IMG/VR virus record: IMGVR_UViG_3300008119_000566
Span: 1 to 61,562 of that record
DNA length: 61,562 nucleotides
Reading direction: 5' to 3' (one strand)
Source: a virus
Each line of letters begins with the position of its first letter. Position 1 is the stretch's first letter. A model generated the notes under the pieces. That model saw only the letters and a list, made by a program, of their open reading frames with translations, was not told where the DNA came from and made no database searches. This document shows, piece after piece, positions 316 through 61,562 of the stretch. Made by a program: the position numbers and the translations under genes.

Positions 316-1323
316 TTACAAAGATTTTACAGATACTAAATTATCTCTAAATATTTTCCAAGCGTTTTCCCAAGTCCAGCGATTGCTTCCTTCTAAGACT
401 TTAGCTCTGTCCAGTAGTAACGCATCATTGACTGCTTGTACTAAGTCCTCATTCATACAGCCAGTAACACCCTCGTCAACAACATCTAATGGACCTTGAC
501 ATGGATAAGCCGCTACGGGGGTTCCACAAGCCATTGCTTCAATCATAACAAGCCCAAATGTTTCCCAACGGCTTGGAAATACAAATACGTCTGCCATAGC
601 AAAGTATTTGGCTAGCTCTTGTCCACGTTTAGCACCTACAAATTTTACATCAGGATACTGTGCCTTATACTCTTCCAGCATAGGGCCATCACCTACCATG
701 AACTTAACACCCGCATAGGGCATTTCAAAGAACGCTTCTAGATTCTTTTCTTTGCTCACACGACTAACACATACTAGTATAGGTCCATTCACCACTGTGC
801 CAGTACGTTGACTTGGATTAAATATCTCACGGTCAACACCCCTAGTCCAAGGAATAATTTCTCCATCAAATCCGTGTGCTTGTAGCTCTTTAACCATTGT
901 GTCTGTAGTTGTTAATACTTTACCACTGTGCTTGTGGAACCAACGTACTAAAGGCCAAGTAATAGCCTCAGGGACACCAAATAAGGCTCTAATTCCTTCT
1001 GGAAACTTAGTATGATAAGCAGTATTGTAGCGATAACCGTGTTTGTCAAGATATTGTCTAGCACACAAACCCACAGGACCTTCTGTGGCGATGTGGATAT
1101 GATCCGGATTGATCTCCTCAAATATCTTGCCCACTTTCCAGGGAAAGGCAATCTTGACTTCGTTGTAGCCAGGGCAATCAACATAGCGGAACCTCCTGGG
1201 ATCAAGATATACAACACTATAGTTGTCCCGAATCGCACACGCTTCAATATTTTTATAGGTTGTAACCACACCATTGATCTGCTCCGGTAGATTATCTGTA
1301 ACGATTAAGATTGTTTTTTGCAT
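316..1323 (-). CDS. GT4-type glycosyltransferase, Agt-like
   Basis: 335 aa. The protein has the two-Rossmann GT-B layout of family 4 glycosyltransferases: an N-terminal acceptor domain, a donor domain from about residue 175 (VCVSRVSKEKN), and the E-x7-E signature in ETFGLVMIEA near residue 255, which binds the nucleotide-sugar. It lies 21 nt downstream of a PlcP-like phosphoesterase on the same strand. In marine bacteria such a pair (agt and plcP) replaces phospholipids with glycolipids under phosphate stress: PlcP yields diacylglycerol and Agt adds a sugar. The family call is firm. The lipid substrate is inferred from the neighbour, and surface-glycan synthesis is the alternative. Confidence 0.75.
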   Translation of the reverse strand: MQKTILIVTDNLPEQINGVVTTYKNIEACAIRDNYSVVYLDPRRFRYVDCPGYNEVKIAFPWKVGKIFEEINPDHIHIATEGPVGLCARQYLDKHGYRYNTAYHTKFPEGIRALFGVPEAITWPLVRWFHKHSGKVLTTTDTMVKELQAHGFDGEIIPWTRGVDREIFNPSQRTGTVVNGPILVCVSRVSKEKNLEAFFEMPYAGVKFMVGDGPMLEEYKAQYPDVKFVGAKRGQELAKYFAMADVFVFPSRWETFGLVMIEAMACGTPVAAYPCQGPLDVVDEGVTGCMNEDLVQAVNDALLLDRAKVLEGSNRWTWENAWKIFRDNLVSVKSL

Positions 1324-1344: not shown

Positions 1345-2229
1345 TCAAATTTTAACCAACTGGTCATTGTTGATCTTGCTTGTTCGCAGGCCGTCTGAGT
1401 TGGAAATTCCAGAGTCACTCGACCCGGAATGTCCTTTGGATCGTTTACGTGAACTGCTAGTATTATCAATATCCACATTATCTCGCTCCTTAGTCCATGT
1501 AACTATTTCCCAACGGCCGTCCCAGTGTTCAACTAATGCTGTACAACTCTCAACCCAATCTCCATCGTTCATATATGTAACACCGTTGATCTCTTTGATT
1601 TCTGCGTGGTGTATGTGTCCACATATAACACCATCGAACCCACGCTTCTTACAGTAATTGGCCAAGTTCTCTTCAAACTTGAACACAAAGTCTACTGCTT
1701 TTTTGACTTTGTACTTAAGATACTTGCTAAGGCTAAAGTACCCAAAACCCATACGACGACGTATCCAATTAAATTTATTGTTGAGTGTAAGAACAATGTC
1801 ATATGCTTTGTCTCCCAAAAACGCTATCCATGGAGCTAGTCTAGTAATGCCATCAAATAAGTCACCGTGTACTACAAGATAGTGCTTACCATCTGCACCT
1901 ATATGTTCTATTTGATTGTGTATTTCTATTAGACCAAAATTAAAACCATACGGTATCATTGGTCTTAAAAATTCATCATGATTACCTGCTATGAATACTA
2001 CACGGGTGCCACGTTTGGCGTGACCTAGTACACGACGTACCACGTTAGTGTGACTTTGTTTCCAACGCCATTTGTTTTGTTGTATCTTCCAGGCATCAAT
2101 TATATCACCTACTAGATAGAGAGTATCGCACGAGTTGTGCTTGAGAAAATTATTGAGCTGTTCCGCCTTACAGTCTTTTGTACCTAAGTGGACGTCACTC
2201 ACAAAAATACTACGATAAGTTTTTTGCAT
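1345..2229 (-). CDS. plcP: PlcP/LpxH-type metallophosphoesterase
   Basis: 294 aa. Calcineurin-like metal-binding motifs occur in order: SDVHLG (residue 11), GDIID (about 41), GNHDE (about 82), HGDLFD (about 121) and GHIHH (about 204), with YMNDGDWVES further on. This pattern matches proteins annotated as UDP-2,3-diacylglucosamine hydrolase, many of which are the phospholipase C PlcP of lipid remodelling. The Ser/Arg-rich tail after residue 255 is probably disordered. Both this gene and the following glycosyltransferase start with MQKT. I favour PlcP over LpxH because of the adjacent glycosyltransferase and the NDGDWVES segment, but activity cannot be read from sequence alone. Confidence 0.7.
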   Translation of the reverse strand: MQKTYRSIFVSDVHLGTKDCKAEQLNNFLKHNSCDTLYLVGDIIDAWKIQQNKWRWKQSHTNVVRRVLGHAKRGTRVVFIAGNHDEFLRPMIPYGFNFGLIEIHNQIEHIGADGKHYLVVHGDLFDGITRLAPWIAFLGDKAYDIVLTLNNKFNWIRRRMGFGYFSLSKYLKYKVKKAVDFVFKFEENLANYCKKRGFDGVICGHIHHAEIKEINGVTYMNDGDWVESCTALVEHWDGRWEIVTWTKERDNVDIDNTSSSRKRSKGHSGSSDSGISNSDGLRTSKINNDQLVKI

Positions 2230-48339: not shown

Positions 48340-48346
48340 TATTTAA
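48340..48346 (-). promoter_or_regulatory. Late-type promoter TTAAATA over a stop codon
   Basis: The TAA stop of the epimerase gene (48343-48345) lies within TTAAATA, and the ATG at 48335 follows 4 nt after the element. Confidence 0.5.
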
Positions 48347-49173
48347 CTTTTTTCGTAATCTAACCATTCGTAAACATTAAGCCATTTGCGTGTACCCACT
48401 GTTTCCTTTAAATGATGCAAATCTGCACAGGTTTTGTTGCGCATACGGGTCTGTTCTGCAAACGGTACTGGTTCTGTTTCTAGGGGAACACCCTCTTGTT
48501 CTGCAATATATTCAGCTATGTCCAGAAACGAGTGCGGTAGGCCGGATCCCACGTTCCAGATACCACTGCCCTTTACAGTATTAATAAAGTCTAATTGCAG
48601 TTGACAGATGTCACCTACCCATGTCCAGTCACGCTTGATTAGCTCTGCGTTGTCCCACACAGTAACTTTACCTTCCTTCTTAGCCTGTTGTCGCCATTTG
48701 TAGATAGCATTGGCTCGCTTGCCTCTGAGGTGCATCCACTTGCCGTAGACATTGAAATAGCGAAAGCCTTGTACAAATGCCTTATGGTCTGGTTGTTGAA
48801 ATACCCAACGGTCAAATAGATACTTGCTCCATGCGTAGGGTGTTTGAGGTTTGCATGCCGCTGTTTCCTCAAAGTCTTTAGTGTTACCATACACACTACT
48901 TGAACTGGCATACTGTAAATTAACTGCGTGTTTTTGACATTCACCAAAAAGCCAGCAACTGAAATCAAAATTCTTCTGCATTATGAGGTCAACGTCAGTT
49001 TCGCTCATATCGGCAATTGCACCTAAATGGATAACCCAATCGTACTGCTTAACATCAGGACGCTCTTTTGGATCCCACTCGTATCCGTCAACTTGCCAAT
49101 CTGGTTGTTTGCTCAAAAACGAAGTCATATTCCTACCAATAAACCCTTGGTGGCCTGTTACTAGTATTTTCAT
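48343..49173 (-). CDS. NAD-dependent sugar epimerase (HldD-like)
   Basis: 276 aa from the second of two adjacent ATG codons. The extended SDR features are VTGHQGFIGRNM (GxxGxxG), SSSSVYG and YAWSKYLFDRW (Tyr-x3-Lys), and IWNVGSGLPHSFLDIA. It resembles ADP-glyceromanno-heptose 6-epimerase. It may alter lipopolysaccharide or supply a modified sugar. AAAGGAG precedes it. Confidence 0.8.
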   Translation of the reverse strand: MKILVTGHQGFIGRNMTSFLSKQPDWQVDGYEWDPKERPDVKQYDWVIHLGAIADMSETDVDLIMQKNFDFSCWLFGECQKHAVNLQYASSSSVYGNTKDFEETAACKPQTPYAWSKYLFDRWVFQQPDHKAFVQGFRYFNVYGKWMHLRGKRANAIYKWRQQAKKEGKVTVWDNAELIKRDWTWVGDICQLQLDFINTVKGSGIWNVGSGLPHSFLDIAEYIAEQEGVPLETEPVPFAEQTRMRNKTCADLHHLKETVGTRKWLNVYEWLDYEKS

Positions 49174-49188
49174 CATAACTCCTTTTGA

Positions 49189-50910: not shown

Positions 50911-51155
50911 ACAAACCTTTCTACATCACATACAAACTGGTTGAAGAGATGCTACAAAAGCACGATGTCCACTGTGTGTTTGAACTGGATGCACCCGTGC
51001 AGATCTTTACCAGGCTGATGTCATCAGAGTTCTACACCACGCAGGATGTCCGCGGTCGTGAGGCTGAGTTTAGAGGGTGCTGGGCACTGAGCGAGATCTA
51101 CTGTCCACATGAAGGTATTGACCGTCGTAGTGAATATGGAATGGAGATTGTATGA
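50907..51155 (+). CDS. Small phage protein, 82 aa
   Basis: Mixed protein (FYITYKLVEEMLQKHDVHCV; YTTQDVRGREAEFRGCWAL). Linked by 4-nt overlaps at both ends. No domain recognised. Confidence 0.55.
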   Translation: MNKPFYITYKLVEEMLQKHDVHCVFELDAPVQIFTRLMSSEFYTTQDVRGREAEFRGCWALSEIYCPHEGIDRRSEYGMEIV

Positions 51156-51391
51156 ACGAACGAATTAAAGAACTTGAAAAACAATGTTGGCAATCCAGCC
51201 AGTCTGAGCCTTATGCCTTGTTTGATGTTAACAAGTTCGCCGAGTTGATTGTGAGAGAATGTGCCAAGTATATCAATGAACGCAGTCAAGACTGGGACGC
51301 TGATTTGCGGTGGATCTTCAATGACGGTTCTGGTGATATGGCAGTCAATGTTGACGAATTATTAAATAGACATTTTGGAGTTGAAGAATGA
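51152..51391 (+). CDS. MNERI-family phage protein, copy 1
   Basis: 79 aa. MNERIKELEKQCW, KFAELIVRECAKYI and a C-terminal HFGVEE form a pattern seen in many T4-like phages, often in tandem copies. The next gene is a paralogue. Function unknown. Confidence 0.65.
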   Translation: MNERIKELEKQCWQSSQSEPYALFDVNKFAELIVRECAKYINERSQDWDADLRWIFNDGSGDMAVNVDELLNRHFGVEE

Positions 51392-51633
51392 ACGAACGAA
51401 TTCGAGAACTGGCTGATGAGGCTGAAGCACAGTATTGTGATCTAGGCGATGCCAGTTGTTTCAAAAGACTAGGATTAGTTGAAGCAGTAGTTTTCAAACC
51501 AGAAGATTTAGAAAAGTTCGCCGAGTTGATTGTAGAGGAGTGTGCAGGCATCATAGAATCACAGGATGTGGACCCTTCATTCAAACTCAGAATGAGTTGG
51601 GCAGTCAAAGAATATTTCGGAGTTGAAGAATAA
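51388..51633 (+). CDS. MNERI-family phage protein, copy 2
   Basis: 81 aa. MNERIRELADEAE, KFAELIVEECAGII and YFGVEE match copy 1, with a diverged middle. The two genes overlap by 4 nt, consistent with tandem duplication. Confidence 0.65.
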   Translation: MNERIRELADEAEAQYCDLGDASCFKRLGLVEAVVFKPEDLEKFAELIVEECAGIIESQDVDPSFKLRMSWAVKEYFGVEE

Positions 51634-51809
51634 TGGAACCAAAATATCTATATACAATCAAGTGGACACAACCCTACGCAACAGATTGGCAGCGGCCATA
51701 CCTACGCGGATTGCAAAAACAGATGGAACAAGTAATTGAAAACATCTTAGAGCAAAGTGACTACAGCGAGGCAAAAGAAGTAATTGATCGAATCAGACAG
51801 CGAATTTAA
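51633..51809 (+). CDS. Small phage protein, 58 aa
   Basis: The frame starts at the TAATG overlap at 51633 (MEPKYLYTIKWTQPYATDWQ) and ends with a charged helix. Position and overlap support it. Function unknown. Confidence 0.55.
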   Translation: MEPKYLYTIKWTQPYATDWQRPYLRGLQKQMEQVIENILEQSDYSEAKEVIDRIRQRI

Positions 51810-52041
51810 TACAAAAAAACTAGTAACAGAATACTTGGATAGATTTCCTCATGTACACAGAATACATAAGCAGTCAATCTTTCATGGTAAAATTAAAGAC
51901 TGGTGTGAGAAGAATTTTAACAGCGAATTTAAAGATTGGTTTTGGTTCCCAGGTGGTCGTTACGATGACCACTCCAATCTACACATTAGGCATGACAAAT
52001 GGAACACCTTGTTTATTTTAAGGTGGGGTGATAAAATATGA
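51784..52041 (+). CDS. Small protein of the F-x-L-[KR]-[WY] family
   Basis: 85 aa if started at the TTG at 51784; no in-frame ATG is available early, so the start is uncertain. It has KDWFWFPGG and ends HDKWNTLFILRWGDKI. The C-terminal block is shared with at least six other small proteins in the next 2.5 kb. Confidence 0.5.
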   Translation: MIESDSEFNTKKLVTEYLDRFPHVHRIHKQSIFHGKIKDWCEKNFNSEFKDWFWFPGGRYDDHSNLHIRHDKWNTLFILRWGDKI

Positions 52042-52238
52042 AAATGGAAAGAGTTGAAGTGGGCATGTTTAAATTGCCAGGTGTAGTTCTTGACAAAGAA
52101 GAAATGACCGAAGAGAAACTGCATGAGATGGATGAATGGAGACTGACCGAACAAGGAGTTGGCACACGCATGACTGATTTACTATGGAGTTTTCGTAACG
52201 AAAGTCAAAGGGACTGGTTTATTCTTAAGTGGTCATGA
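52038..52238 (+). CDS. Small protein of the F-x-L-[KR]-[WY] family
   Basis: 66 aa. It ends WSFRNESQRDWFILKWS, the clearest form of the shared C-terminal block. ATGA overlaps link it to both neighbours. Confidence 0.6.
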   Translation: MKMERVEVGMFKLPGVVLDKEEMTEEKLHEMDEWRLTEQGVGTRMTDLLWSFRNESQRDWFILKWS

Positions 52239-52453
52239 TAAAGGTTATAATCAAACATCGCAGTGCCAATGAAATATTAGATATAGTTCACGAGCTAAGG
52301 GCTCAAGGACTTGTACAAGGCACTGACTTTGATTTTGCCTATAACAAAGCACAATACGATAACTTCAGTTACGAACCAGCAGTAGAACAACATACAGTAT
52401 TTTCCTTTCATACTGAAAAGTATGCAACACTATTTGCCTTGAGGTACACATGA
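52235..52453 (+). CDS. Small protein of the F-x-L-[KR]-[WY] family
   Basis: 72 aa from the ATG at 52235 (ATGA overlap). The N-terminal part (IKHRSANEILDIVHELRAQG) differs from its neighbours; the end FSFHTEKYATLFALRYT carries the shared block with Tyr in place of Trp. Confidence 0.6.
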   Translation: MIKVIIKHRSANEILDIVHELRAQGLVQGTDFDFAYNKAQYDNFSYEPAVEQHTVFSFHTEKYATLFALRYT

Positions 52454-52692
52454 CAGTGTTAGAAGGTAATAAACGACATAGATTGGAACATTGGCATCGA
52501 TTACGTCTTGCCAAAGAAGATTACTATGGAATTTATGATAGACTGACTGAAACAACTCCAGAGTTTTACCAACACTTGAAAAAACAATATGGAATCAAAT
52601 TGGATTTTGATAATAGCGGAAACATAACTGACACATATCAAATTATTGATGAAAAGAAGTACATGCTTTTTATTTTAAAATATCCAAAATAA
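52450..52692 (+). CDS. Small protein of the F-x-L-[KR]-[WY] family
   Basis: 80 aa. Basic N-terminal helix (KRHRLEHWHRLRLAKEDYYG) and C-terminal IIDEKKYMLFILKYPK. Starts with an ATGA overlap. Confidence 0.6.
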   Translation: MTVLEGNKRHRLEHWHRLRLAKEDYYGIYDRLTETTPEFYQHLKKQYGIKLDFDNSGNITDTYQIIDEKKYMLFILKYPK

Positions 52693-52945: not shown

Positions 52946-53451
52946 ATATATTTTTAGACATGGATGACGTGGTAGCCGCTTGGCAAGAACGAGCACAGGA
53001 GATACTGAAGCTACGTGTTAACAAAGACAGTGATCGTATACCACAAGCGGAATGGGACAAGCTCAAAGAGGACATGCGCTTTTATAGAGACTTGCCCGTA
53101 ATGGAGGGCGCACATGAACTGGTAGCTATGTGCAAGCAGTACATTGCCCGAAATCCTCAATACACACTACGATTTCTTACAGCATTGCCGCATGATTACT
53201 CCATGCCATTGGCCGTTTACGATAAGGTACATTGGGGAGATCAACACTTCCCAGGTATACCGGTTACCATTGGACCATTCAGTTATGACAAGTGGCGGCA
53301 TTGTAAAAATGCAGGCGACATATTGATCGATGACCGTTTGAGCAACTGTGAGGAATGGGAAGCTCGAGGTGGCATTGCACACAGATATACCACTTGGGAG
53401 GCATGTAAGCCATGGCTAGAACAAACACTAAACCCAATGCCCAAGTTGTAA
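52942..53451 (+). CDS. 5'(3')-deoxyribonucleotidase-like HAD protein
   Basis: 169 aa. FLDMDDVVAAW is motif I (Asp-x-Asp), RFLTALP motif II, YDKWRHCKNAGDILIDDR motifs III-IV. This is the layout of phage dNMP phosphatases that adjust nucleotide pools. ATGA overlap with the upstream gene. Confidence 0.75.
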   Translation: MNIFLDMDDVVAAWQERAQEILKLRVNKDSDRIPQAEWDKLKEDMRFYRDLPVMEGAHELVAMCKQYIARNPQYTLRFLTALPHDYSMPLAVYDKVHWGDQHFPGIPVTIGPFSYDKWRHCKNAGDILIDDRLSNCEEWEARGGIAHRYTTWEACKPWLEQTLNPMPKL

Positions 53452-53747
53452 TTGCACACGGTAGACAGATGGGTAAATCACACGTTGCCGATATACTCAA
53501 ATCTTTCTACGACAGAATGGGATTAAGGCCTAAAATCAAATGGCAACGTTTGCCAGGACTCAAACTACAAGCCTATACAGATGAAATATCTGCCCGTGGA
53601 TATGAACGTGGAATCAACGAGTCAGATATGGATCCTGTACAAGAGTGGTCAGACAACTGTCAATGTGGCACACGTATGAGCTTTAATGTTTGGCAGTTTG
53701 AAAACGAAAAACAAATTACTATGTTTTTAATTAGGTGGTCAGAATGA
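53412..53747 (+). CDS. Protein of the F-x-L-[KR]-[WY] family with extended N-terminus
   Basis: 111 aa. The N-terminal GRQMGKSHVADIL resembles part of a P-loop but is one residue short of the Walker A spacing. It ends WQFENEKQITMFLIRWSE, the shared block. It overlaps the HAD gene by 40 nt; GGAGG lies upstream. Confidence 0.6.
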   Translation: MARTNTKPNAQVVIAHGRQMGKSHVADILKSFYDRMGLRPKIKWQRLPGLKLQAYTDEISARGYERGINESDMDPVQEWSDNCQCGTRMSFNVWQFENEKQITMFLIRWSE

Positions 53748-54031
53748 ATGATTCATTAGAAGAGTATTATGCTGTGGCTGCACAAGCTATGGCTAAGGAT
53801 ATTGATCGAGAAGTGTTATGGAGTATGCTATCTGAGATTGGGTGGACTAGAGTTATACTCAGTAGCGATGTGGCTAGGAATAATGCTGATAATATAGTAC
53901 AATGGCTTGAAGCAAACTGCAAACACGCTTACGAAAAAGCAACAACTGACTTTTTGTTTGAGAACAAACAAGATGCAAATTGGTTTATACTGAAATGGCT
54001 TACCCCTAATGGCACTTCCACACAATATTGA
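53744..54031 (+). CDS. Protein of the F-x-L-[KR]-[WY] family
   Basis: 95 aa from the ATG at 53744. Acidic helical N-terminal part; the block TDFLFENKQDANWFILKWL is followed by ten extra residues (TPNGTSTQY end) that overlap the next gene's start. Confidence 0.6.
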   Translation: MNDSLEEYYAVAAQAMAKDIDREVLWSMLSEIGWTRVILSSDVARNNADNIVQWLEANCKHAYEKATTDFLFENKQDANWFILKWLTPNGTSTQY

Positions 54032-54206
54032 AATAGATCACGAGTATTCTGTCATCGATGTTGATGGTAGTGCAGAGACTCTTAACAACGCTGTTGCTTG
54101 GTGTCATGATCGGTTTGGTCCATCAGGACATAGATGGTTCTATACATTTAAACGATTTTATTTTAGAGAAGAAAAAGATTCTCTTTGGTTTGAATTGAGG
54201 TGGTAA
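54009..54206 (+). CDS. Protein of the F-x-L-[KR]-[WY] family
   Basis: 65 aa. It has WCHDRFGPSGHRWFYTFKR and ends FYFREEKDSLWFELRW, a complete shared block at the very C-terminus. It overlaps the previous gene by 23 nt and abuts the next. Confidence 0.6.
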   Translation: MALPHNIEIDHEYSVIDVDGSAETLNNAVAWCHDRFGPSGHRWFYTFKRFYFREEKDSLWFELRW

Positions 54207-57461: not shown

Positions 57462-57745
57462 AATATGTCAATAACACATTAGAATGGATCAAGCAAGATT
57501 GGAGGTCAAATCCTTGGAGATTGAGTGCCGAGACTTATAACGCTTTCACAGCACTTGCCACTGCTATTATATTTGCTACTATGGCGCCAAATGTGCCATA
57601 TCTAATAACTTACCCGTTATGGCTAAGTGGAACGTTCCTTATGATATTCTGCGGTATCAGTCGTGGCAGTGTTGGAATGGTAACTATGAGTGTTGTAATG
57701 ACCATTATCGATGCTGTTGGCTATGCTAGATTATTGATGTCTTAA
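57458..57745 (+). CDS. Small membrane protein
   Basis: 95 aa. LEWIKQDWRSNPWRL is followed by three hydrophobic segments (FTALATAIIFATMAP; YPLWLSGTFLMIFCGI; MVTMSVVMTIIDAVGYA). A pattern I recall from T4-like cyanophages. Its end overlaps the converging radical SAM gene by 15 nt. Confidence 0.6.
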   Translation: MKYVNNTLEWIKQDWRSNPWRLSAETYNAFTALATAIIFATMAPNVPYLITYPLWLSGTFLMIFCGISRGSVGMVTMSVVMTIIDAVGYARLLMS

Positions 57746-59032
57746 ACTTTGATAAAACAAAACTAGTTCTGGAAACGTTTCTATGAAGTTAGTTTTACGT
57801 TTGGCATCCAATGCTTCAACTCCTTTAACAAACTTTGTTTTAACTTCATTATAGTCAAACTTTTGATTTAAAAGATTTAAACAATTATCTATATTTGCTA
57901 TCCAAGCTGGTGATGGCAATATAGTCTTACTGTCCCCTAAAGCTAATTGGATCTTTTCTCTAAACTCATCGTGCATAGTTAAGTTTAAAAAGTTCCACAC
58001 TAACGGATTTGAAACATAAGTTAATTTCATTCCAGCTCGATTGGCAATGTTGTTGTCGACGTACCATTGAGATAATTCATTTAGTGTAAATGTATTAAAC
58101 AAAGTAAAGCTGGTCTGTATGGTCATTTCAATTCCAGCATTATGAAATCGATCAAAGTTCTCTAACCATTTGCCTTCGTGGTATCCATATCTAAAGTATT
58201 CACCACGGCGACCAAAGTGATCATGGCTCATAGTAATTTTACAATTTCTCCCCCATGGTGCCAAGTAGTCCTCTACAATGTCAACACCTTTGTATGTTCT
58301 GATACTGCCGTTAGTATGGAACCATAGGTTGATCTGCTTATTGAGTCCTCGCTTTATTAACTCATCAATCAACTCAAACGTTTCTTCTTGCATTAGCGGC
58401 TCGCCACCGTTAAAGTGTATTTGATCTATTTCATTGCAGTTGTCTAAAACATATTTCATTTTAGAACTATTGTCAACTACTGCACTAGTTTTGTAATTAT
58501 CGTAATGTGATATTGGACTTTTGTCCAACCAAATTGGAAACACTTCTTTATAGTTGTCTGCCACTGCACTGCTGATGTCTGGTTGGCAATGTAAGCAGGC
58601 TAAGTTACATTTGTTGGTCCATATCAAATCAACAAATTTAAGATTGTGTTTGTTTAGTTGTCCATCATTATCAGTATGCGCTAAACTATCTTCAATAACA
58701 TTCTTACCTTGCTGATTGCTTAACCATCTAGGGTTACCAATAGCTGGACCACCACGTTCAGTTTCCCAGCAGCTTTCACAACTCTTAGGTCGCTGTTTGT
58801 CCATGAACTCTTTACGTATACCTTTGGCAATATCATTGTTCATAATGTTGATTACGGTATCAGTCTTGATGTTTCCCAGCACTTGGTTACTAGCACAGCA
58901 GAATTTGACATTGCCATCACTGCTGGTCCAAACTGTATTCCAAGGAGCACAACAGAAACTTTCCCCGTACTCTTTGATCACTGGGTGGTTCTTCATCTCT
59001 TCAAATCTTAGTGAGTTATTAGCTTGTACCAT
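57731..59032 (-). CDS. Radical SAM protein, twitch/SPASM-like, copy A
   Basis: 433 aa. An N-terminal Cys cluster (FCCAPWNTVW; VKFCCAS; SCESCWE) resembles an auxiliary Fe-S site. The radical SAM motif CNLACLHC lies near residue 145, and HFNGGEPLM supplies the SAM-binding GGE. No leader peptide gene for a RiPP is visible beside it. It overlaps copy B by 25 nt and probably acts with it and the carbamoyltransferase. Confidence 0.8.
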   Translation of the reverse strand: MVQANNSLRFEEMKNHPVIKEYGESFCCAPWNTVWTSSDGNVKFCCASNQVLGNIKTDTVINIMNNDIAKGIRKEFMDKQRPKSCESCWETERGGPAIGNPRWLSNQQGKNVIEDSLAHTDNDGQLNKHNLKFVDLIWTNKCNLACLHCQPDISSAVADNYKEVFPIWLDKSPISHYDNYKTSAVVDNSSKMKYVLDNCNEIDQIHFNGGEPLMQEETFELIDELIKRGLNKQINLWFHTNGSIRTYKGVDIVEDYLAPWGRNCKITMSHDHFGRRGEYFRYGYHEGKWLENFDRFHNAGIEMTIQTSFTLFNTFTLNELSQWYVDNNIANRAGMKLTYVSNPLVWNFLNLTMHDEFREKIQLALGDSKTILPSPAWIANIDNCLNLLNQKFDYNEVKTKFVKGVEALDAKRKTNFIETFPELVLFYQSLRHQ

Positions 59033-60204
59033 GTGGGTTCTAGTTGTTCAAATGTTGTAAAGTTTTTATAGATAGTCAGTGCTTTGGCATCTCGTCTGTC
59101 CATATACTGTTTAGTCGTTTCAAGTAGAGGTCTTGATTTATTGTCATCTAAATATTTGATTACAAATTGCATCCTATGATCCTCTCGATATAGTTCACGT
59201 AAGTAATCCTTTGCTTGTTGATTTAAATTGTCCACTGCCAGTTCTGCGGGCCAATGCACAAATTGATAATGCCATAGTACTCCGTTGGATTCTAAAAAGT
59301 CCACCATTGATGTTAGTTTATGCACATTGAGTACGCTGATGGTAATTCCAACTTTGTGATTAAACGGATCACCGTTAGTCATCCCTAGTTTAGCCATCTC
59401 TTTGTACTGTAGCATGTTTCGCACCCACAAGTTCCAGTTGCCTCTAGTTCTGATGTATTCACTTAACTCTTCTGTAGCATCTTGACTTACATCAAACTGT
59501 ATTGACCTAAAGCTACGTAACATTGTTATTTGTTCAGGCTTCAAAGTAACAGTGCCATTGGTATTGATTCCCAAGTTAATATTTTGAGAATAGCCGTTGG
59601 TTACCACATGGTCTATGAGTCTCCAAAAGTATTCATTAACTAGTGGTTCCCCTCCACTTATCTGTAGCTTAATAATGTTAGCAGTTAATTCTAATAACTT
59701 ATCAAACACTCCTGGTCGGGTATACCATTCTAAATCACCGTATCGTTTATTCTTTTTAGTAGCAGCATAAAAAACTTTTCGATCCCTAAAGTATTCAACT
59801 TCAAATTCTTTTTCTAATAAACTACTGCTTTCTTCACTGCAGGTTCTACAGGCTAGATTGCACAAGTTACCAAATTTAATATGCATACTACGTATCATTG
59901 GAGTTTTATAGTATAACAGCGTAGTCTCTGGAGGAAAGCGATCAAACATATTTTCACGCATACTCTTAACACCCGCCCGTTCGTGATTAATACATTGACC
60001 ACAATCAGATTCAATCATATCTCTATGAGTTCTAAAGTGATCCCTGATACCTTTTAAGTCTGAGTGAGTATCCCAATTGTCTAAATCCTCAGCTGATTGG
60101 ATTATGTAGTTGCTGTCTTTACGATACATGGCACAACAAGGACCCACAGTGCCTTTAGGTTCAATGTATAAATGCGTAAAGGGAAATAAACAATCTTTGG
60201 TCAT
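59008..60204 (-). CDS. Radical SAM protein, twitch/SPASM-like, copy B
   Basis: 398 aa. Same layout: N-terminal CCAMYRK and CGQCIN cluster, radical SAM motif CNLACRTC near residue 115, LQISGGEPLVNEYFW for SAM binding. Diverged paralogue of copy A. It overlaps the carbamoyltransferase by 4 nt, so the three genes are co-transcribed. Confidence 0.8.
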   Translation of the reverse strand: MTKDCLFPFTHLYIEPKGTVGPCCAMYRKDSNYIIQSAEDLDNWDTHSDLKGIRDHFRTHRDMIESDCGQCINHERAGVKSMRENMFDRFPPETTLLYYKTPMIRSMHIKFGNLCNLACRTCSEESSSLLEKEFEVEYFRDRKVFYAATKKNKRYGDLEWYTRPGVFDKLLELTANIIKLQISGGEPLVNEYFWRLIDHVVTNGYSQNINLGINTNGTVTLKPEQITMLRSFRSIQFDVSQDATEELSEYIRTRGNWNLWVRNMLQYKEMAKLGMTNGDPFNHKVGITISVLNVHKLTSMVDFLESNGVLWHYQFVHWPAELAVDNLNQQAKDYLRELYREDHRMQFVIKYLDDNKSRPLLETTKQYMDRRDAKALTIYKNFTTFEQLEPTWYKLITH

Positions 60205-61562
60205 GAACAGACTTTAACTCCATATAAATTTTCAAAACGGTCAGCATCAGCTCTGTCGTTGACCATTGGCTCACCCCTAACATTGAGGCTGGTGTTTAGT
60301 AACATGGGACAGCCTGTGGCTGCATACCATGCTTCCAATAACTGTCTTATTCCTGATCCATCTTGCGGCACTGTTTGTACACGGCTAGTCCCATCACGAT
60401 GAATGATAGCAGGAAATAGCTCAGGATGCCTGCAACGAGCGACTGACTGCATATACCTACTGTTATGCCAACCCCTAGGCATATCAAAATAATTGTCAAC
60501 ATGCTCTTCCATAACGACTGGCGCAAAGGGTCTGAACTGTTGTCTTCGTTTAATGTCATTTACTTTCTCTTTAATTTCTGTACCCCTTGGGTCAGCCAAG
60601 AGGCTGCGATTGCCCAAGGCTCTTGGACCGTATTCGGCTGGTCCGGAAGCCACTCCCACAATAGACTTAGCAAGTAGCTGAGCCATAATGTCGCTAACAG
60701 GATAAGCCCCAGGTATAACATGACCGAGGCTAGCACTATGCCAGTTAACTCTACGCCCATAGCCCAGACAGGCAGCACCAAGGCTGCTGCCAGCATCACC
60801 AGGGTTAGGCATGATCCAAATATTTTCATAGTATTCTCCTAGTAGCCTATTGGCCAAACAGTTGAGGGCTACCCCTCCACCATAACACAAGTTCTTGCTG
60901 GGGCTCAACGTAAGGGCACGTGCCATTACTGCACCTATGTATTGCTCGGCTATGCTCTGGGTAGCGGCTGCTAGGTCAAATACGTCTGCACCCTCTAGGT
61001 ACCCAGAGTTGACTCCAGTGTGTAAGTTTTGTTTAAACTCTGTACGTGCTATGCTAGCCACTAGGTCATGGGTAATCACAGGCTCTAGCTTGGTATTGCC
61101 ATACGCTGCCATACCCATGAGTATGTACTCTTCGTCCAAAGGTTTGAGACCCACCCGCTGTGTCATGGCTGTGTAGAACAAGCCTATGCTGTCTGGGTAG
61201 GTTTGACTCCACAGTTTCTTATATTGAGCAAAGCCGTTGGCATCGTAATGGGCATGCCATATTGATGCTGTATCAAACTCTCCTATAGCGTCTATGACCA
61301 CAATTGTGGCTTCATCATAGGGTGAGGTCTGGAATTGTGCCGCAGCATGACTTAGGTGATGCCCATGGGTGTGCAATGGCCTACGTCCCAACATGTGCCA
61401 TTGAACCTCACCCAATACGTCTTGAGTTTTTGTGCTGGGTCTACGCTGTCCTGTACGCAAGCCCCTAAGCCAACGTAGCCACGGACGTTCATAATAGTGT
61501 AGCTGGTAAACACCCTGGGTATGGGTCAGCACATCTTTGATTAGATCAAGGCTCAACGTTTT
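60201..61562 (-). CDS. NodU/CmcH-type carbamoyltransferase, 5' end outside window
   Basis: The frame is open to the right edge, so the N-terminus is missing (members are usually about 550-600 aa; 453 codons are present). HGHHLSHAAAQF (Kae1/YrdC-type metal site) lies near the visible start. LCYGGGVALNC, GPAEYGPRALGNRS and FRPFAPVV mark the carbamoyltransferase fold and C-terminal domain. It transfers carbamoyl from carbamoyl phosphate via an adenylate. In phages such enzymes can modify DNA bases (a 5-hydroxymethylcytosine carbamoyltransferase is known from metagenomes). Confidence 0.88.
   Translation of the reverse strand, partial: KTLSLDLIKDVLTHTQGVYQLHYYERPWLRWLRGLRTGQRRPSTKTQDVLGEVQWHMLGRRPLHTHGHHLSHAAAQFQTSPYDEATIVVIDAIGEFDTASIWHAHYDANGFAQYKKLWSQTYPDSIGLFYTAMTQRVGLKPLDEEYILMGMAAYGNTKLEPVITHDLVASIARTEFKQNLHTGVNSGYLEGADVFDLAAATQSIAEQYIGAVMARALTLSPSKNLCYGGGVALNCLANRLLGEYYENIWIMPNPGDAGSSLGAACLGYGRRVNWHSASLGHVIPGAYPVSDIMAQLLAKSIVGVASGPAEYGPRALGNRSLLADPRGTEIKEKVNDIKRRQQFRPFAPVVMEEHVDNYFDMPRGWHNSRYMQSVARCRHPELFPAIIHRDGTSRVQTVPQDGSGIRQLLEAWYAATGCPMLLNTSLNVRGEPMVNDRADADRFENLYGVKVCS

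Follow-up and report, generated by a model that had tools for sequence, protein, structure and literature searches.

A tiny peptide encoded beside a family of viral O-carbamoyltransferases, and an operon that joins such a carbamoyltransferase to two radical SAM enzymes

The O-carbamoyltransferases NodU, TobZ, GdmN and NovN share a two-domain architecture, a set of metal-site histidine and aspartate residues, and a GPRALGNRS-type carbamoyl-adenylate motif. The same features are found in a carbamoyltransferase (CT) encoded at the right edge of the IMG/VR virus record IMGVR_UViG_3300008119_000566, which was analysed over its entire 61,562 bases (hereafter the window). The record is probably a fragment, because it ends within the CT gene; genes for two radical S-adenosylmethionine (SAM) enzymes, rSAM1 and rSAM2, lie next to it. 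The viral protein differs from its counterparts in its length (492 amino acids, compared with 550-700) and in belonging to a virus family that is nearly always encoded beside a tiny, highly conserved and apparently undescribed peptide, which was not found at the bacterial CT loci that were inspected. NodU proper was rejected as an identity for the window CT, which scores 125 bits against the 1000-bit cut-off of NF041651, with the protein cut by the contig end.

Several phages carry CTs of the same superfamily. An enzyme that carbamoylates 5-hydroxymethylcytosine (5hmC) has been validated by MetaGPA (eLife 2021; PMC8670742). The Nol-like CTs of T4-like cyanophages and pelagiphages fall, as does the window CT, in PHROG 1601, and are ~28-32% identical to it; in Pelagibacter phage Mosig, the CT adjoins MoaA-like radical SAM genes, an aminotransferase, an epimerase and VrlC. 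However, no peptide with the RDPFIYK tail described below was found for these phages, or elsewhere, in the phage isolate collection. Multiple radical SAM genes are likewise present in a T4-like environmental phage, whose 183-kb genome contains 12 (PMC5332604), and in pelagimyophages, where they lie in the host-recognition region (PMC7029224), although in the accessible parts of these two reports they are not linked to a CT, to SGNH genes or to a tiny peptide.

Two further systems bear on the peptide itself. The crocagin cluster (CgnA-CgnI) parallels the viral operon in combining a peptide gene, a carbamoyltransferase (CgnI) and a hydrolase (CgnD) that resembles the fold of the operon protein SGNH2. 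It uses a dioxygenase, CgnC, and the peptide-binding proteins CgnB and CgnE, with no radical SAM enzyme named, whereas the viral operon has radical SAM enzymes and no recognised dioxygenase; homologues of CgnB, CgnC and CgnE were not recognised among the operon genes of two related loci, L004 and L005, for which no dedicated search was run. In hydrogenase maturation, the Kae1/YrdC-type enzyme HypF carbamoylates the C-terminal tail of its partner protein HypE, and so offers a precedent for carbamoyl transfer to a peptide tail. HypE, however, is a large enzyme ending in cysteine, while the viral peptide has 31-53 residues and a tail without cysteine. The literature searched, mostly open-access, yielded no prior description of radical SAM, SGNH and CT genes together or of N-terminal twitch radical SAM (N-twitch) enzymes in phages, and its open part none of a CT-linked peptide.

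A tiny peptide beside the viral carbamoyltransferases

Viral CT loci were fetched by CT similarity alone, and the 80 obtained are the best matches of one scan rather than a random sample; their genes were called simply as the longest open reading frames (ORFs), and the contigs are fragments. A tiny-peptide ORF is present in 77 of these 80 loci, once in each except for L004 and L005, which have two. The predicted product is basic and ends in [DEN]P[FY]xY plus 0-2 residues, mostly as RDPFIYK. In the loci inspected, the ORF lies on the CT strand, directly before the CT gene or, where an SGNH gene precedes the CT, directly before that gene. Chance origin was rejected, as such ORFs occur at 79 sites in the 1.46 Mb of real sequence and at 0, 0 and 0 sites in three Markov shuffles. 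Furthermore, when 63 distinct copies are compared over their last 20 codons, the mean proportion of synonymous differences (pS) is 0.84 and that of nonsynonymous differences (pN) is 0.36. It is therefore the amino acids that are conserved and not the DNA, as expected from purifying selection.

The association also holds in the reverse direction. A degenerate DNA pattern for RDPFIYK followed by a stop codon matched at least 120 virus stretches, and a CT start lies within 1.5 kb in 38 of the 43 fetched sites that have at least 2.5 kb of downstream sequence, with one more at 1.57 kb; at many sites the CT gene begins within the peptide gene, with an overlap of 4 nt at the peptide stop. Where the CT is not adjacent, all checked records longer than 20 kb have a CT elsewhere, and the two records without one are fragments of 13-16 kb. 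In L219, the peptide lies directly before a radical SAM gene. When 398 genomes from a single bacterial phylum were searched, the tail pattern had no match, and the peptide therefore looks virus-borne; a divergent copy is found in the marine virus AG-345-D19 (L099). The first 18 residues of the peptide show moderate amphipathicity (z averages 1.1 relative to shuffles, with 88% lying above the shuffle mean, and the net charge is ~+9), by statistics that are drawn from related sequences and are indicative only. As a separate observation, the RDPFIYK tail on one 13.2 kb contig (L198) ends a longer, Cys/His-rich ORF in place of the usual short peptide.

The viral CT family occurs in two genomic contexts. 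The first is rich in sugar-type and radical SAM genes: N-twitch enzymes are encoded in 41 of 42 larger CT-bearing virus records, in 1-21 copies, and form arrays of up to seven that are accompanied by SGNH genes and the CT, and then by a large repetitive protein. In the second, the gene order is primase–peptide–CT–DnaB helicase, as family searches confirmed for L144 and L153, and as resemblance to the same helicase cluster indicated for the others. Only 2 of the 15 records sampled mainly for this replication context encode an N-twitch enzyme. Since radical SAM genes are scarce there while the peptide is kept, the radical SAM enzymes are optional partners, and the peptide is not. A clade of 12 proteins from the replication context (L144, L153, L157, L161, L167 and L207 among others) is reduced to the Kae1-like half of the CT, with 312-336 amino acids and intact metal residues; three of these records also encode, elsewhere, a second CT of ~606-619 amino acids. 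These peptide-linked half-length proteins suggest that the peptide goes with the Kae1-like half.

Together, these sequence patterns point to a peptide that would be either a partner of the CT, as an anchor or dock, or its substrate, and they fit both. The CT-linked peptide is the most surprising fact of the analysis, and its tight coupling provides a concrete handle on the function of CTs and radical SAM arrays that are common in uncultured phages and have so far been annotated as stray metabolic genes.

Two observations on the first context may be added. A single virus record of 346,856 bp (G040, the record of L082) has 21 N-twitch radical SAM matches. The large repetitive protein 3' of the CT (L012:11391-15323, L057:11368-13701, L073:8600-10315 and ~60 other loci) has repeats resembling FDFSWHPDPxDPPYIYVFGNQW and a conserved C-terminal domain, with no Pfam, PHROG or PDB match.

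The operon at the contig edge

An earlier note on this DNA, made from its letters alone, had described three overlapping genes at 57731-61562, encoding two different twitch/SPASM-type radical SAM enzymes and a NodU/CmcH-type CT. This gene set stands (Table 1): all three genes are on the minus strand, overlapping by 4 nt (CT/rSAM1) and 25 nt (rSAM1/rSAM2), and their identities are borne out by profile scores, while the truncation of the CT at the contig end was not mentioned there. The CT matches Carbam_trans_N (8.6e-29) and Carbam_trans_C (3.8e-47), both above cut-off, as well as PHROG 1601 (2.9e-83). Its metal-site histidine and aspartate residues and those of the YrdC-like motif are conserved, so that both domains and the motif of an O-carbamoyltransferase are present. 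Relative to a full-length copy that is 98% identical (L004:5792-7270, 492 amino acids), 39 N-terminal residues are missing at the contig edge.

Both radical SAM proteins belong to NF033640 (N_Twi_rSAM), with 253 bits for rSAM2 and 241 bits for rSAM1 against a cut-off of 170, and Pfam SPASM and Radical_SAM matches are above cut-off. In each, the SPASM/twitch domain precedes the radical SAM core instead of following it. Both proteins have the CxxxCxxC motif of the AdoMet cluster and the twitch cysteines, which are invariant or nearly so across relatives; in rSAM1, this applies to C5, C23/C24, C68, C71, C115, C119, C122 and GGEP. The AlphaFold model of rSAM1 has a mean pLDDT of 83.8 and matches radical-SAM/SPASM folds. 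As the two paralogues are only ~25% identical, their duplication is old. The ratio of nonsynonymous to synonymous substitution rates (dN/dS) between the window and L005 is 0.060 for rSAM1 and 0.050 for rSAM2, and that of the CT, computed between L004 and L005, is 0.095; these low values indicate purifying selection. The three genes are therefore real, intact except for the N-terminus of the CT, and under selection. At the DNA level, a search of phage isolates returned a single short match.

Table 1. Positions of the operon genes and of two sugar-related window genes
Feature	Source	Position	Strand	Length	Remarks
rSAM2, second radical SAM enzyme, N-terminal twitch/SPASM domain	window	57731..59032	-	433 aa	
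rSAM1, radical SAM enzyme, N-terminal twitch/SPASM domain	window	59008..60204	-	398 aa	
CT, NodU/CmcH/TobZ-type O-carbamoyltransferase	window	60201..61562	-	453 of 492 aa	open at contig end
peptide1, MFIIRFYRWLVREYKWRRHMRKMRKENPYNY	L004	3797-3892			directly before SGNH1; kept in L005
peptide2, MFKWIRELYIKCQRELAHRRRLKEIKKNDPFTY	L004	4784-4885			directly before SGNH2; kept in L005
GT4-type glycosyltransferase	window	316..1323	-		Glyco_trans_1_4 2.2e-23, Glycos_transf_1 1.2e-21; outside operon
NDP-sugar epimerase, related to ADP-heptose epimerase	window	48343..49176	-		PF01370 1.2e-28; outside operon

The operon continues past the window edge in L004, which has 96.7% DNA identity over 1.9 kb, and in contig 3300009164_002986 (L003/L005/L007), with 85-94% protein identity. 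A tiny ORF stands directly before each of two SGNH genes in L004 and is kept in L005, and the order is therefore peptide1–SGNH1–peptide2–SGNH2–CT–rSAM1–rSAM2. The earlier note had looked to this region for a hydroxymethylase or a nucleotide kinase; the genes upstream of the CT in L004 and L005 instead encode the tiny peptides and SGNH-fold proteins, and neither of the two enzymes, nor a thymidylate-synthase-type gene, is among them.

SGNH1 and SGNH2 have ~300 amino acids each and conserve Ser107, Asp281 and His284 (SGNH2 numbering), including the DxxH motif. Neither has a direct Pfam match; the homologue in L012 reaches 8.5e-4, below cut-off, and SGNH1 had no match among phage isolates. The model of SGNH2 (from L004, outside the window; pLDDT 84.5) matches GDSL proteins with a probability of 1.00 and a query TM of just 0.3-0.5, and its fold matches comprise GDSL lipases/esterases, the O-acetyltransferase PatB and crocagin CgnD. 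These model-based scores are evidence for a fold class and not for a substrate.

Candidate targets of the operon

Among the products envisaged by the earlier note was a hypermodified base, in which case the CT would carbamoylate a hydroxymethylated base that the radical SAM enzymes build or extend. The existence of the 5hmC enzyme speaks for this, as does the phage group that has the peptide and CT between DNA primase and DnaB helicase genes. However, the window CT is only 25% identical to that enzyme (reference sequence from PMC8670742), and in a FastTree tree of 90 sequences it lies outside the 5hmC clade, grouping with rhizobial and Streptomyces proteins and NodU-type CTs. At the positions of TobZ W408, G421 and R423, which are diagnostic for the 5hmC CT (PMC8670742) and were assigned here by motif counting, it has V/G/R, whereas the validated enzyme has I/C/T; G/R at 421/423 is common to the window CT and other non-DNA CTs. 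No gene with a thymidylate synthase (TS) fold is present in the window, itself a fragment, or in the 15 records sampled mainly for the replication context, and of the TS genes found in 20 of the 42 records of the sugar context, the six sampled are all canonical (Asn177/His147). In the MetaGPA study, the CTs of unmodified contigs adjoin glycosyltransferase genes (PMC8670742). DNA base modification was thus rejected on CT clade, residues 421/423, neighbours and TS type, and is considered very improbable. The family is a widespread CT subfamily set apart from the DNA-modifying CT, which is relevant wherever a CT gene is used to predict DNA modification in a phage.

By comparison, DNA carbamoylation is likely for a different virus record, IMGVR_UViG_3300050496_000100 (L090), whose CT is 39% identical to the validated 5hmC enzyme and has L/C/T at the three positions. 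Its neighbours, named by eye from sequence, are MazG-like, kinase, TS-like and dCMP-deaminase genes, all of which are absent from the L004/L005 operon.

The preferred reading, held with evenly balanced confidence on the strength of sequence comparisons, is that the operon serves to decorate a sugar-type molecule, for which a glycan or glycolipid on the surface of the host or the virion is the likeliest candidate, and that the peptide is partner or substrate of the CT. The C-terminal YrdC-like half of the CT would form carbamoyl-adenylate, from which the Kae1-like half would transfer the carbamoyl group to a hydroxyl. The predicted catalysis of rSAM1 and rSAM2 would consist of successive radical C-H steps (dehydrogenation, epimerisation or deoxygenation), and the SGNH proteins may act as O-acyl esterases or transferases. 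The basic peptide, with its amphipathic N-terminus and its tail of near-invariant [DN]P[FY]xY form, would work with the CT; anchoring or docking is leaned to over a role as substrate, although the data do not separate the two.

Support for sugar tailoring is drawn largely from the neighbours of relatives. In the first viral context, these include a UDP-glucose/GDP-mannose-type dehydrogenase (L030) and a nucleotidyltransferase–kinase fusion (L015), and CT relatives also adjoin genes resembling amidinotransferases or aminotransferases. A genome scan, for which a narrower radical SAM alignment was used as the diverse one was too variable, found 40 cellular contigs with N-twitch relatives, of which L102-L104 and L121 look like mis-binned phage. 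In L101, L105, L118 and L125, among other bacterial loci, the N-twitch enzyme is paired with a CT. The commonest neighbours at such bacterial loci are DegT aminotransferases, dioxygenases, NTP transferases, GDSL lipases and B12-binding radical SAM proteins; MannoseP_isomer, WelO5/PhyH oxygenases and UbiA also occur, and L101 has GT2 with DegT. The N-twitch profile finds a match in the twitch of the aminocyclitol dehydrogenase BtrN, and the top fold match of rSAM1 is BlsE, a sugar-nucleoside decarboxylase. The window itself encodes a GT4-type glycosyltransferase and an epimerase (177 bits against TIGR02197, under the cut-off of 274.6). In pelagimyophages, the accessible part of one report describes host-recognition regions in which radical SAM cassettes occur together with glycosyltransferases that are interpreted as O-chain modifiers (PMC7029224). 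Of the glycan and small-molecule products named in the earlier note, it is thus the former that appears favoured by these neighbours, short of proof.

Several findings weigh against sugar tailoring. The window operon has no glycosyltransferase or NDP-sugar gene of its own, the sugar evidence coming from relatives and from distant window genes, and the peptide-CT pairs of the replication context have no evident sugar neighbours. The commonest of the unnamed neighbour families lack assignment: Pfam and PHROG gave nothing useful for c0 (in part), c3, c4, c7, c26 and c40, and since PDB searches with the c3 and c0 profiles were empty, these two are not called glycosyltransferases despite a by-eye resemblance. 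The fold matches of rSAM1 are split between enzymes of sugar/nucleoside or nucleotide type (BlsE, MoaA) and the peptide or protein maturases CteB, SkfB, SuiB and anSME, those of SGNH2 extend to the crocagin peptide hydrolase CgnD, and crocagin is a precedent for a peptide as the target (PMC10070186).

These last points lead to peptide modification, the main rival to sugar tailoring and a doubtful one. As in a pathway to ribosomally synthesised and post-translationally modified peptides (RiPPs), the tiny peptide would be a precursor whose RDPFIY(K) tail is modified by the CT, SGNH and radical SAM proteins, in a manner comparable to crocagin; so complete a RiPP-like scheme is rather unlikely. 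It would explain the translationally coupled ORFs beside CT or SGNH genes in 77 of the 80 loci and the peptide lying directly before a radical SAM gene in L219. Crocagin likewise employs a CT and a hydrolase (PMC10070186), CgnD (E 7.6e-5) has the highest query TM among the SGNH2 matches listed, and CteB, SkfB and SuiB are among the fold matches of rSAM1. Yet a precursor core is expected to vary with its enzymes, and the constancy of the tail with or without radical SAM and SGNH genes, N-twitch enzymes being absent from 13 of the 15 records sampled mainly for the replication context, therefore counts against it. Furthermore, a strongly basic, amphipathic peptide is an unusual leader, neither a transporter nor a recognition-domain gene was seen among the operon genes, and the neighbours are of sugar type. 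A little less doubtful, though still tentative, is the proposal that the peptide is simply the carbamoyl acceptor, with the Kae1-fold CT acting on the RDPFIY(K) tail and SGNH and N-twitch proteins modifying it further where present. If so, many uncultured phages would carry an undescribed HypF/HypE-like or RiPP-like peptide-modification module. A diffusible small molecule, such as a secondary metabolite or signal made by this compact cassette during infection, is unlikely. The closest plasmid relatives of the CT do lie in small clusters, from Mesorhizobium and Streptomyces, that contain DUF6071 genes, those of Mesorhizobium also with aminotransferase, 2-oxoglutarate-dependent oxygenase and radical SAM genes, and WelO5/PhyH oxygenases and UbiA at the bacterial N-twitch loci would suit such a product; however, no scaffold-forming enzyme (nonribosomal peptide synthetase, polyketide synthase or terpene type) was recognised near the operon, and sugar-type and SGNH genes dominate the phage relatives.

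Other genes in the window

The GT4-type glycosyltransferase gene adjoins a calcineurin-like phosphoesterase gene at 1345-2229 (minus strand). This pair resembles PlcP-Agt, by which marine bacteria remodel their lipids under phosphate starvation, and such a pair would be of note if carried by a phage. On the plus strand, two adjacent small paralogues (51152-51391 and 51388-51633) have the form MNERI(K/R)EL...FAELIV(R/E)EC...FGVEE, and a run of small ORFs at 51784-52692 and 53412-54206 shares a C-terminal motif resembling F..E.D..WFILKW, apparently as a tandem paralogue family.

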